Source: an uncultured Bacillota bacterium (lineage in GTDB: Bacteria > Bacillota > Clostridia > Oscillospirales > Oscillospiraceae). From it: 64,000 nt of DNA. Shown piece by piece: positions 36,796 to 41,228 of the stretch. The position numbers were made by a program, and so were the translations under genes. How positions within the stretch are numbered: position 1 is the first letter of the stretch; every line of letters starts with the position of its first letter. The stretch spans positions 1 through 64,000 of the forward strand of contig CANSXE010000001.1 of NCBI GenBank assembly GCA_947650875.1, written 5' to 3'. Under the pieces are notes generated by a model. The model was not told where the DNA came from, searched no databases, and saw nothing but the letters and a program-made list of their open reading frames with translations.

Positions 36796-39165
36796 ATGGC
36801 GAAGCGTTTGAAGGCAGTCATTATGGCGGGGGGCGAGGGTACCCGTCTGCGGCCCCTGTCGCTGGGCAGTCCCAAACCCATGACCCCGCTGCTGGGCCGG
36901 CCGGTGATGGAGCACATCATCAATCTGCTGAAGGTCCACGGGATAGACGATATCTGCGTCACCCTGTTCTATAAGCCCCAGGCGGTAATGGATTACTTTG
37001 GCGGCGGGGACAGGCTGGGGGTGCGGCTGACCTATTTCATTGAAGACGAACCCCTGGGGACGGCGGGAAGCGTGAAAAACTGCATGGACCACATCGGAGG
37101 GGAGGACTTTCTGGTCATCAGCGGGGACTGCGTATGCGATCTGGACCTGACCGCCCTGATGGACTTCCACCGGAAGCGGGGGGCGGAGGCCACCCTGGGG
37201 CTCTACCGCCACAAGACGCCCCTGGAGTATGGCCTGGTCCTCACCGATGAGGAGGGCCGGATTGAGCGCTTTGTGGAAAAGCCGGCCTGGGGCCAGGTGT
37301 TTACAGACCAGATCAACACCGGAATTTACCTCCTCTCCCCCGCCGCCATGGACCGGGTGCCCCCCAATACGGCGTGGGACTTCGGCAAGGACCTGTTTCC
37401 CGCCCTGCTCCGGGAGGGGGCGCCCCTCTACGGCCTGCCCCTGGAGGGCTACTGGTGTGACATGGGGGGATGCAGCGCCTATCTGGACTGCACCTGCGAT
37501 GCGCTGTCCGGCAAGGTGCGCCTGGACATGGGCCTGCCCCGCCTGAAGGCGGGGGTGTGGTCGGCCCAGCCCCTGCCCCAGGGGCTCAATCTGGTCCCCC
37601 CCTGCTGGATCGGCCCCGGGGTGCGCCTGGGGGAGGGCTGTCTCATAGGCCCCCACACCGTTCTGGACAAGGGGGCCGTGGTGGGGGAGCGGAGCATGGT
37701 CCAGCGGTCCATCCTGCTGGAAAACGCCGCCGCCGGGGACCGGACTACCCTCTACGGGGCCGTTCTGTGCAGAGACGCTTCCGCCCGGCGGGGCGCCGTC
37801 CTCAACGAGAGAGTGGTACTGGGAGAGAATGCCCTGGCCGAGGAGGGGGCTGCCCTGCTGGAGCGGGTGTGTCTCTGGCCGGGCCAGACCGCCCCCGCCG
37901 GCTGCCGTCTGGCCCGGTCCATTACCAGCGGAAGCCAGAAGGGAGTGCTGCGCTTTGGGGACAGCGGCGCCATCCGGGGCGTTTTGGGGGAAGACATAGG
38001 CCCGGAGGCCCTGCTCACGCTGGGCAGTATTTTGGGGACGGAGGGCCCGGTAGGACTGGGCTGCTCCCCCACCCCCGGGGCCGGGATGCTGGCCCGGGCG
38101 GCGGCGGTGGGGGCGGCGGCAGCGGGGAGCGAAGTGCTTACCCACGCCCTCCACAGCCCCGTTCAGGGGGCGGGACTGGCCGCCCTGCGTCAAATACCCG
38201 TCTCTCTCTTTGTGGAGGAGAGCGGAAATATTGTCTACCTCCACCTTTTTGATCAGAACGGTCTGCCCCTGGGGCGGGCCCGGGAGCGAAAGCTGGAGCA
38301 TGCGCTGCTTCAGGGGGAGGTGCGCCGGACCAGAGGGGACAGGGTGGGCCAGCTCCAGCGGCTGGATTTTACCCCGGAGCAGTGGGGGCGCCGGGTGGTA
38401 GAGAACGCCGGTCTCCGCCGGCCCGCGCTGCGCCGCGTCACTGCGGCGGTGGGGAGCACTACCCCGGAGGACTGCGCCCTCAGGGCGGCGCTGACTGCGC
38501 TGGGCTGTAAGCTGGAGGAGGAGTGGCGGCCCGGAATCGTGGCCTTCCGCGCCCAGCGGGGCGGATTTTCCCTCACCGCCCAGGATGAGCGGGGCGCTAT
38601 GGTGGACTCAGGTCAGCTGCTCGCCCTGGTTGCCCTGATTGAAATGGAGAATGGCTCGGGCAAGGTGGCTGTCCCCGCCGGAGCCAGTGCGGCGGTGGAG
38701 CTGGTGGCCGCCGGCTACGGAGGGACCGTCCTCCGTCTGGACCGGGACGGAGAACAGGCCGCTGCCCTCTACGCATCCCAGCCCTGGATACGGCAGGCCC
38801 CGGCGGCGGCGGTACGCATCTGCTCCCGGATGGCCGTCTCCGGCCAGAAGCTGGAGACCCTGGTGGCCAAGACGCCCAGATTCTCCTCCTGGCGGCGGGA
38901 GGTGCCCCTCGTCTCCGACCGGGGTCAGGTGATGCAGGCCCTGGCCCGGGAGCACGCCCGCCAGCCCACCGGGGAGGGGCTGCGGATGCGCACCGGCAGC
39001 GGCTGGGTATACCTCACCCCCATCGCCCGCCGCTCTGCCCTGCGGGTGATCGCTGAGGGTCCCGACCTGGAGCTGGCCGCCGAGCTGTGTGACTTCTACG
39101 CCGGCCGGGCGGCGGAGGTGGATCGGTCCATTTCTGAGCATTGTGTACAAGAGGAGGACAAATAA
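36796..39165 (+). CDS. GMP-type nucleotidyltransferase fused to a degenerate phosphomannomutase domain
   Basis: 789 residues. N-terminal GT-A nucleotidyltransferase (about 1-235): KAVIMAGGEGTRLRPLS, KPMTPLLGRP, VISGDCVCDLD, FVEKPAWGQVFTDQINTGIY. A left-handed beta-helix segment covers about 250-370. Residues 375-789 match phosphohexomutase domains, but the phosphoserine loop (TASHNP type) is replaced by VEESGNIVYLH, so mutase activity is doubtful. The ATG at 36796 has the GGAAGG site touching it; TTG 36808 would give the canonical start (KAVIMAGG) with 12-base spacing and may be the real start. Likely makes an NDP-sugar (GDP-mannose type) for cell-surface polymers. Confidence 0.85.
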   Translation: MAKRLKAVIMAGGEGTRLRPLSLGSPKPMTPLLGRPVMEHIINLLKVHGIDDICVTLFYKPQAVMDYFGGGDRLGVRLTYFIEDEPLGTAGSVKNCMDHIGGEDFLVISGDCVCDLDLTALMDFHRKRGAEATLGLYRHKTPLEYGLVLTDEEGRIERFVEKPAWGQVFTDQINTGIYLLSPAAMDRVPPNTAWDFGKDLFPALLREGAPLYGLPLEGYWCDMGGCSAYLDCTCDALSGKVRLDMGLPRLKAGVWSAQPLPQGLNLVPPCWIGPGVRLGEGCLIGPHTVLDKGAVVGERSMVQRSILLENAAAGDRTTLYGAVLCRDASARRGAVLNERVVLGENALAEEGAALLERVCLWPGQTAPAGCRLARSITSGSQKGVLRFGDSGAIRGVLGEDIGPEALLTLGSILGTEGPVGLGCSPTPGAGMLARAAAVGAAAAGSEVLTHALHSPVQGAGLAALRQIPVSLFVEESGNIVYLHLFDQNGLPLGRARERKLEHALLQGEVRRTRGDRVGQLQRLDFTPEQWGRRVVENAGLRRPALRRVTAAVGSTTPEDCALRAALTALGCKLEEEWRPGIVAFRAQRGGFSLTAQDERGAMVDSGQLLALVALIEMENGSGKVAVPAGASAAVELVAAGYGGTVLRLDRDGEQAAALYASQPWIRQAPAAAVRICSRMAVSGQKLETLVAKTPRFSSWRREVPLVSDRGQVMQALAREHARQPTGEGLRMRTGSGWVYLTPIARRSALRVIAEGPDLELAAELCDFYAGRAAEVDRSISEHCVQEEDK

Positions 39166-39257
39166 CCACATATCTGTTCTCCTGAAAGCATAGTATACTT
39201 TTCAGGGAAAGTGTGGTAAACTAGATGTGTCTATTTTGTCCTGCGAACGCCTTGCGG

Positions 39258-39325
39258 CGCCTGTAGGGGCGCTTTACAAGGCGTCCGGACATGCGGGACG
39301 GACGCATCGTGATGCGTCTCTACCA
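39258..39325. repeat. Dispersed palindrome pair
   Basis: GTAGGGGCGCTTTACAAGGC followed by GTCC, then GACGGACGCATCGTGATGCG and TCTCTAC. It is the same bipartite family as at 29148, 49150 and 50339, with a diverged first arm. Confidence 0.7.
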
Positions 39326-39432
39326 TTGATTTAAACGCCAAGGGGCAGGGAGAACCCACCCGCCCCGGCGTCTAAATATATTCCCCAGCCCCGAACCGTA
39401 GGACAGGCGGGAACGGACTGAGGAGCAAAAAC

Positions 39433-39534
39433 GACAGAAGCTCCATCATCAGGCGAAGGGATCGCGCACCCCGACCGGCGAGGCAGGGCCGGAAGGGGAC
39501 GGTCCTTCGTCTGGTTGCTGTGGAGTGTTCTGTC
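39433..39534 (+). ncRNA. Candidate structured RNA / regulatory leader upstream of RNase J
   Basis: A 102-base segment folds on paper into one long interrupted hairpin: GACAGAA/TTCTGTC, CTCCA/TGGAG, CAGGCGAAG/CTTCGTCTG (with one G-U pair), GATCG/CGGTC, CCCC/GGGG and CCGGC/GCCGG, with small internal loops and an 8-base apical loop. An alternative GGAGC/GCTCC hairpin (39422-39444) would compete with the lower stem. It ends 36 bases before the rnjA ATG. Whether it is a separate RNA, a cis-regulatory leader or an RNase J target is not decided by sequence. I found no match to the SRP, 6S, RNase P or tmRNA signatures I know. Confidence 0.5.
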
Positions 39535-39569
39535 AGGATACATCAATTTTGAATGAAAAAGGAGTTATC

Positions 39570-41228
39570 ATGGCAGAAAAACTGAAAATCATTTCCCTTG
39601 GCGGTCTCAACGAGATTGGCAAGAACCTCACCGTTTACGAGTACGGCGGCGACATTATCGTGGTAGACTGCGGCATGGGCTTCCCCGACGACGACATGTA
39701 CGGTATCGACGTGGTCATCCCCGATGTCAGCTACCTGATTAAGAACCAGAGTAAGATCCGGGGCATCTTCATCACCCACGGCCACGAGGACCACATCGGG
39801 GCTCTGCCCTATGTGCTGCGGTCCCTCAACGCCCCCATCTACGCCACCCGCATGTCGGCGGGGCTCATCAAGCTGAAGCTGGAGGAGCACCGCCTGCTGG
39901 ACCGGACCAAGCTCATCACCTGCGAGGCGGGCCAGGTCGTCAAGGCGGGAAAATTCACCGTGGAGTTCATCCATGTGAACCACTCCATTGCCGACGCGGT
40001 GGCCTTCGCCATCAAGTGCCCGGTGGGCACCTGCGTCCACACCGGCGACTTCAAAATCGACGCCACCCCCATCCAGGGGGGGATGATGGACCTGGCCCGG
40101 CTGGGCGAGCTGGGCAAGGAGGGGGTGCTCACCCTGCTGGCCGACTCCACCAACGTGGAGCGCCCGGGCTACACCCGGTCCGAGCGCAGTGTGGGGGCCT
40201 CCTTCGACGGGCTGTTCCGGGGCTGTGAGGAGCGCATTATCGTCACCACCTTCGCCTCCAACGTGGACCGCATCCAGCAGGTGATTGACGTGGCCGCCCG
40301 GTACGGGCGCAAGGTGGCCGTTACCGGCCGGTCCATGGAGAATGTGATGAAGGTGTCCGCCGAGCTGGGGTATATGAATATCCCCGACGGCATCCTGATG
40401 GACCTGAATCACATCAAATCCCTGCCCAAGCACAAGGTCTGCATCATCACCACCGGCAGTCAGGGCGAGACCATGTCCGCCCTCACCCGCATGGCCTTCA
40501 ACACCCACCGGCAGGTGGACCTGCTCCCCGGCGACCGGGTAATCATCTCCGCCTCCGCCATCCCGGGCAACGAGAACGCCATCGGCAACGTGGTCAACGA
40601 GCTGTACCGCAAGGGGGTGGAGGTGCTCAACGAGCGGGAGCTGACCCTCCATGTGTCGGGCCACGCCTGCCAGGAGGAGCTGAAGATCGTCCACGCCCTG
40701 GTAAAGCCCAAATTTTTCGTCCCCGTCCACGGGGAGCAGCGGATGCTGCAAATCCATGGAAAGTTGGCCCGGCAGATGGGGATGGACCCCAACCACATCC
40801 TCATCAGCGACATCGGCCGGGTGATGGAGTTCACCCCCAACTCGGCCAAGCTCACCGGCACCGTCACTGCCGGGCAGGTCTTTGTGGACGGCTACGGCGT
40901 GGGCGACGTGGGTAGCGTGGTGCTGCGGGACCGCCGCCACCTGGCCGAGGATGGCATGATTGTGGTGGCCCTGTCCATGTCCGGGGAGGACGGCGCTCTG
41001 GTGTCCGGCCCGGATATCATCACCCGGGGCTTCGTCTATGTGAAGGAGTCCGAGGGCCTGCTGGAGGAGCTGCGCAAGGTGGCCCTGGAGGCCATCCAGA
41101 GCGTGGATACCCGGTATAACACCGACTGGTCCGCTATCAAGGGGGCTATCAAGGGCGACCTGTCCGGCTACCTGTATAAGAAGACCAAGCGCTCCCCCAT
41201 GATCCTGCCTGTTATCATGGAGGTGTGA
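39570..41228 (+). CDS. rnj: Ribonuclease J
   Basis: 552 residues from ATG 39570, with AAAGGAG 7 bases upstream. The metallo-beta-lactamase centre reads THGHEDHIGALPYVL near residue 71, beta-CASP motifs include HTGDFKID, LLADSTNVERPGYT and the later HVSGHACQEELK; the C-terminal dimerisation part ends RRSPMILPVIMEV-like. RNase J is both 5'-3' exonuclease and endonuclease and governs mRNA turnover and rRNA maturation. The structured segment just upstream may be part of its own leader. A bidirectional hairpin follows. Confidence 0.96.
   Translation: MAEKLKIISLGGLNEIGKNLTVYEYGGDIIVVDCGMGFPDDDMYGIDVVIPDVSYLIKNQSKIRGIFITHGHEDHIGALPYVLRSLNAPIYATRMSAGLIKLKLEEHRLLDRTKLITCEAGQVVKAGKFTVEFIHVNHSIADAVAFAIKCPVGTCVHTGDFKIDATPIQGGMMDLARLGELGKEGVLTLLADSTNVERPGYTRSERSVGASFDGLFRGCEERIIVTTFASNVDRIQQVIDVAARYGRKVAVTGRSMENVMKVSAELGYMNIPDGILMDLNHIKSLPKHKVCIITTGSQGETMSALTRMAFNTHRQVDLLPGDRVIISASAIPGNENAIGNVVNELYRKGVEVLNERELTLHVSGHACQEELKIVHALVKPKFFVPVHGEQRMLQIHGKLARQMGMDPNHILISDIGRVMEFTPNSAKLTGTVTAGQVFVDGYGVGDVGSVVLRDRRHLAEDGMIVVALSMSGEDGALVSGPDIITRGFVYVKESEGLLEELRKVALEAIQSVDTRYNTDWSAIKGAIKGDLSGYLYKKTKRSPMILPVIMEV

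Follow-up and report, generated by a model that had tools for sequence, protein, structure and literature searches.

In many Gram-positive bacteria it is the 5'-3' enzyme RNase J that defines RNA decay, and structure at the 5' end of a transcript blocks 5'-3' decay by this enzyme. Among structured RNAs associated with ribonuclease genes, the rne-II motif sits before the gene for RNase E. It was found by comparative genomics in the Pseudomonadales (RF01756; PMC2864571). Self-control through the leader is documented for RNases E, III and Y and for PNPase in two accounts (PMC3997798, PMC10303841), and we found no family of structured leaders for RNase J. In the first of these accounts, which cites Schuck, Diwa and Belasco 2009, the rne5 stem-loop is bound by RNase E and sets RNase E synthesis. 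According to the second, B. subtilis RNase Y is controlled when its own 5' UTR and the start of its coding region are cut, RNase J1 acting as the follow-up exonuclease. A search of the open-access literature returned no structured RNase J leader, although a prior prediction without a name is possible. The second system relevant here is the toxin MazF. MazF of B. subtilis, S. aureus and C. difficile cuts the pentamer UACAU; for B. subtilis EndoA and S. thermophilum MazF the site has been refined to UACAUA, and the characterised MazF/EndoA enzymes are weak or inactive on UACAUC (PMC11780869, PMC10893535). In B. subtilis, EndoA cuts appear on removal of RNase J1 or of four 3' exonucleases (PMC11780869). 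We found no report in the open-access literature of a link between MazF and rnjA.

Here we describe a structured RNA upstream of rnjA in an uncultured bacterium of the Oscillospiraceae. In the window (the whole 64,000-nt stretch of DNA that was analysed), rnjA occupies positions 39570-41228 of the + strand and encodes RNase J, a beta-CASP metallo-beta-lactamase ribonuclease (TIGR00649, 618 bits against a cut-off of 400). An earlier note on this DNA had placed a 102-base hairpin with about 34 pairs at 39433-39534, ending 36 bases before the start of rnjA. The hairpin is real, nearly continuous and located just upstream of rnjA; folded alone, its 102 nt form 40 rather than about 34 pairs in the minimum free energy structure (-59.4 kcal/mol), and the gap between its 3' end and the ATG at 39570 is 35 nt. 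Together with its flanks (39422-39569) it folds at -63.7 kcal/mol versus a mean of -43.6 for shuffled sequences (z -5.3), with none of 200 shuffles as good. The GGAGC/GCTCC hairpin (39422-39444) that had been proposed to disrupt the lower stem is feasible in isolation (-5.9 kcal/mol) but is absent from the fold of the whole region and is not kept in relatives, for example at locus L057. The extent first given to the structured RNA was also too narrow, as conserved RNA begins at about 39328, or at about 39229 if counted from the predicted promoter. Judged by comparison with relatives, the hairpin is one domain (the 3' domain) of a larger, predicted structured 5' leader of rnjA that covers about 39229-39569 of the window.

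The predicted promoter lies at 39194-39222 on the + strand and consists of TATACT (39194-39199), a 17-nt spacer and TAAACT (39217-39222), the latter preceded by TGTGG; from its position, transcription of the leader would start near 39229. A TATACT-16/17-TAWAMT pair is present upstream of the RNA in 73 of 81 related loci, 71 of them with a 17-nt spacer, and the -10 box varies among relatives (TATACT-17-TATACT/TAAACT). A generic sigma-70 scan of the + strand did not call the promoter at 39194-39222. The spacer contains, in the window's clade, an inverted repeat, ACTTTT..AAAAGT (39197-39213 in the window), that could be an operator. The gene upstream (36796-39165) codes for a 789-aa protein in which a domain like mannose-1-phosphate guanylyltransferase is fused to a C-terminal part like a phosphohexomutase. 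Between the promoter and the first hairpin, P1, and outside the conserved RNA, lies a dispersed palindromic repeat (39263-39325, no strand given; core 39293-39323) with about 38 partial matches in its own genome; this repeat excepted, the leader region is single copy there. Where the repeat is absent, P1 lies 17-19 nt downstream of the -10 box in many species; in the window the distance is 107 nt. Several copies of the repeat end in CCCTACA, and several relatives carry comparable insertions at one edge of the leader or the other.

The conserved RNA itself, on the + strand throughout, comprises P1 (AUUUAAACGCC...GGCGUCUAAAU, 39329-39377), the P2 hairpin with its conserved ACCGUAGGACAGGCGGG core (39382-39424), supported in the window's clade, and the 3' domain (39433-39534), which is made up of an outer helix, P3 (GACAGAA/UUCUGUC), and a long hairpin, P4. 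The most conserved element is the apical stem-loop CCGGC-GAGGCAGG-GCCGG (39475-39492, loop 39480-39487). Just 3' of the closing helix lies UACAU (39539-39543), a candidate MazF/EndoA cleavage site that reads UACAUC in the window, and further downstream, outside the conserved structure, is the Shine-Dalgarno AAGGAG of rnjA (39559-39564), assigned from the sequence. Relatives keep the order promoter-like pair, P1, P2 and 3' domain, and a second clade (Flavonifractor, Intestinimonas) follows the same plan with different sequence, the Flavonifractor-type homologue of P1 being GGCUUUAUGCGC...AAUAAGGC. The 3' domain of relatives is closed by GACAG/CUGUC, and in most of them it branches into a three-way junction through an additional arm, P5 (GCYGUGC..GCACGGC). 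The lack of branching sets the window's lineage apart, and the hairpin in the window is single because P5 has been lost and P3 lengthened. A short segment resembling UUUUGUGC is found 3' of the capped hairpin in many genera (the P4 3' flank, about 39514-39522 in the window), and TGTGC is the fifth-ranked 5-mer in rnjA leaders. A pseudoknot between the loop and downstream UUGUGC/UUUG was considered by eye and proved inconsistent in clade A. No terminator-like site was found before rnjA, and a switch based on a terminator or on sequestering the Shine-Dalgarno was rejected; the Shine-Dalgarno stands clear of the structure and at a variable distance from it, so that no mechanism of switching can be seen.

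The compared loci comprise the window and 80 rnjA loci from 80 genomes of relatives in the same family (Oscillospiraceae: Lawsonibacter, Flintibacter, Pseudoflavonifractor, Flavonifractor and Intestinimonas). The element stands directly upstream of rnjA in all 81, and the apical motif or a close variant is found upstream of rnjA in each of the 80 relatives' loci. The gene upstream of the leader varies between species while rnjA is constant, giving the RNA the consistent sense position upstream of one gene expected of a structured cis-regulatory leader. Covariation was assessed on a MAFFT alignment of 24 leaders; the structure was predicted from those same sequences, and the rows were chosen to contain UACAU, whose invariance there is no evidence. 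RNAalifold gave -108 kcal/mol versus -55 +/- 4 for class-preserving column shuffles (z -13.5), two-sided changes were seen in 23 of 68 pairs, and the covariation score was reached by none of 500 shuffles. Overall, 88.4% of cells were paired versus 41-51% when partners were slid by 1-3 columns. Helix 1, corresponding to P1, has 98% of its cells paired and shows two-sided changes; in P2 (helices 4-6) helix 4 has five pairs with such changes, and helices 7-11 make up the 3' domain. GU cells outnumber AC cells in the proposed pairs (147 versus 59), indicating that the + strand is the RNA. Compensatory changes, which the earlier note had proposed looking for in relatives, are abundant, and neither poor conservation nor their absence was found; the structure is backed by them, as expected of a structured cis-regulatory leader.

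R1, a covariance model built from the 3' domain, matches the window (77 bits) and nearly all of the 80 loci on the + strand, the weakest members scoring 13-24 bits, and has one match in the window's own genome. Over 197 genomes of the order, all credible R1 matches were in the Oscillospiraceae; three weak hits in other families (L126-L128, 24-30 bits) fall inside unrelated genes or antisense to them and were discarded as chance. Leaders were then surveyed in 68 genomes sampled across the family, nearly every one from a genus of its own; 34 of the 68 have a GNNNCRGG loop closed by four pairs or more, versus 0.4% of shuffles. The stems round this loop are rewritten with pairing kept (CCGGC/GCCGG, ATGGC/GCCAT, CTGGC/GCCAG, TCCGC/GCGGA, TTCGC/GCGAA, CCGAC/GTCGG, CGGAA/TTCCG). 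The loop hairpin was found in none of 20 sampled other families of the order, and only UACAUA is common to them. The earlier note had been unable to match the RNA to a known family, and covariance searches agree: Rfam 15 gave no match over the whole window at gathering scores and nothing relevant at 39160-39600 with E up to 10, 6S models included, and the leaders of 20 relatives had no match at the gathering threshold.

The UACAU pentamer stands out when every 5-mer and 6-mer in rnjA leaders (-200 to -16) is counted without bias or preselection. TACAT is the top 5-mer in the family's leaders (44 of 68 genera, 6.9 expected) and TACATA the top 6-mer (34 of 68, about 2.4-2.5 expected). Both also rank first, ahead of Shine-Dalgarno words, in the 20 other families of the order (TACAT 10 of 20 versus 2.2 expected; TACATA 9-10 of 20 versus 0.65-0.7). 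With control expectations taken from dinucleotide shuffles, TACATA shows no enrichment in pnp leaders from the same genomes (1 of 37, 0.84 expected), which rules out a general leader feature, or in rnjA leaders from 60 families of other orders (1 of 60, 2.9 expected), which rules out a phylum-wide feature of rnjA. The rnjA leaders of those other orders (L229-L288) carry a different motif, GTTCGG or GGNCGG (GTTCGG in 11 of 60 versus 2.2 expected), perhaps another rnjA leader element. Over 80 loci, UACAU occurs at 2.65 per kb in the leader versus 0.32 per kb elsewhere, and within rnjA it is depleted, with 16 occurrences over all loci versus 56 +/- 4 in synonymous codon shuffles and 5 versus 17.8 +/- 2.6 expected in 26 diverse loci; the loci are related and these counts are not fully independent. 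Other genes show no depletion (ratios 0.95-1.05). Several members have no UACAU, e.g. L052, L076-L079 and L081. At the level of the order the site is conserved beyond chance, and it appears accessible because it lies outside the conserved helices; the window itself has UACAUC, not the optimal UACAUA. The order-wide UACAUA and the family-wide folded RNA overlap incompletely, and they may therefore have separate functions.

A toxin that could use this site is widespread among relatives. MazF-family genes are present in 57 of 60 relatives, including all 39 near-complete genomes, and one relative's MazF matches B. subtilis EndoA (4mdx/4me7) with E about 4e-43; in relative L228, mazF adjoins alr. 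The window's own genome has an EndoA orthologue closely similar to the relative's MazF and in this sense encodes a UACAU-type MazF, the specificity of the orthologue being judged from similarity.

That the RNA would act in cis, as the leader or processing substrate of RNase J that the earlier note had thought possible, is well supported because it is linked to rnjA, covaries, has a conserved promoter, lacks a terminator and occurs in one copy per genome; a stand-alone RNA of ~100 nt, raised in the same note, is not favoured. By analogy with the ribonucleases described above, we infer that the leader may control RNase J synthesis, autoregulation by RNase J included. From the sequence comparisons we think it fairly probable that it represents a new family of cis-regulatory leaders, one that governs RNase J synthesis and probably includes a MazF site. 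Such a leader would set the amount of RNase J made, its folded 5' end and GNNNCRGG loop shielding the transcript from 5'-3' decay and offering a putative binding site for a protein, RNase J or a partner nuclease being the simplest candidates. At UACAU(A), MazF/EndoA would cut and so detach the leader, with the ribosome-binding site and coding region left intact, and RNA decay capacity or stress would feed back on RNase J synthesis. Across the order, the Shine-Dalgarno site downstream of UACAU(A) is unblocked. A further proposal, which we put forward tentatively and rate as possible rather than probable, is that the Oscillospirales RNase J mRNA is a conserved, dedicated MazF/EndoA target, with one UACAU(A) between leader and ribosome-binding site serving as a switch and the coding region cleared of the site. 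If true, MazF would gain a specific, evolutionarily selected regulatory target, and toxin activity would be coupled to the main 5'-3' RNA decay enzyme.

Other explanations fit the data less well. The compact fold, nearly invariant loop and variable arms are typical of ligand-binding RNAs, and a riboswitch- or protein-type element could sense a metabolite, an ion or a ribosomal protein via the GNNNCRGG loop, with UACAU incidental; we regard this as unlikely, given that the element is found before rnjA only, in one copy per genome, that it has no terminator or platform sequestering the Shine-Dalgarno, and that UACAUA is enriched far beyond chance. Less likely again is a stable trans-acting small RNA processed from the rnjA leader, with UACAU as its 3' processing site. 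The RNA does have its own promoter, a stable fold of ~215-340 nt and a 3' boundary marked by UACAU, but the linkage to rnjA is obligate in many genera even as the gene upstream of the leader changes, there is no terminator, and no conserved unpaired antisense-like seed is apparent save the GNNNCRGG loop. Lower still we place a passive role, which appears improbable, in which the structure stabilises the 5' end or serves as an RNase III substrate and gives rnjA mRNA a long life with no feedback: a 5'-proximal hairpin and long duplex would indeed block 5'-3' decay, yet the almost invariant loop is not needed for this, and it is the stems that change while the loop does not. A known housekeeping RNA (SRP, 6S) or a pseudogene of one, close to the 6S- or SRP-like hairpin once suggested, can be dismissed almost entirely, as CAGGGCCGGAAGG in the window resembles the SRP tip but this GGAA likeness is lost in relatives, the genome's SRP RNA (RF00169, 69.9 bits, the only match) is on another contig (C20), and neither the SRP nor the 6S models of Rfam match at the leader.

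A folded leader followed by a sequence that matches the MazF cut site hints that enzymes which destroy RNA regulate one another by way of the rnjA leader. An RNA that is backed by covariation and occurs in a dominant gut family is a concrete element to test, and UACAUA beside it is a rare case of a MazF site that selection seems to favour at one point of an mRNA and to remove from the rest. This bears on whether MazF toxins encoded on the chromosome act on dedicated targets in normal physiology.

Structured ribonuclease leaders are already known (rne5, rne-II RF01756), and the rnjA leader differs from them in enzyme and lineage. The rne5 and rne-II Rfam models have no match at the leader in the window or in 20 relatives, and the gene downstream is that of RNase J rather than RNase E. 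Like rne5, the enterobacterial RNase E leader, the RNA described here is the structured 5' UTR of a main decay ribonuclease, but the enzyme family, the order and the structure are different. With rne-II it shares the character of a conserved structured RNA motif from comparative genomics; rne-II, however, belongs to RNase E of the Pseudomonadales, and it has no counterpart among Rfam matches at the rnjA leader. RNase Y autoregulation likewise concerns a Gram-positive decay enzyme, although the available portion of its description (PMC10303841) contains no conserved ornate leader or UACAU element. The likeness to MazF/EndoA cleavage lies in the conservation of precisely this 5-mer/6-mer where the leader ends on its 3' side and in the EndoA orthologue in the genome, the difference being the C as sixth base of the window's site. 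The rnjA leader thus stands apart from the known ribonuclease leaders in enzyme and lineage, falls in no Rfam family and has a conserved toxin-site sequence at its end.
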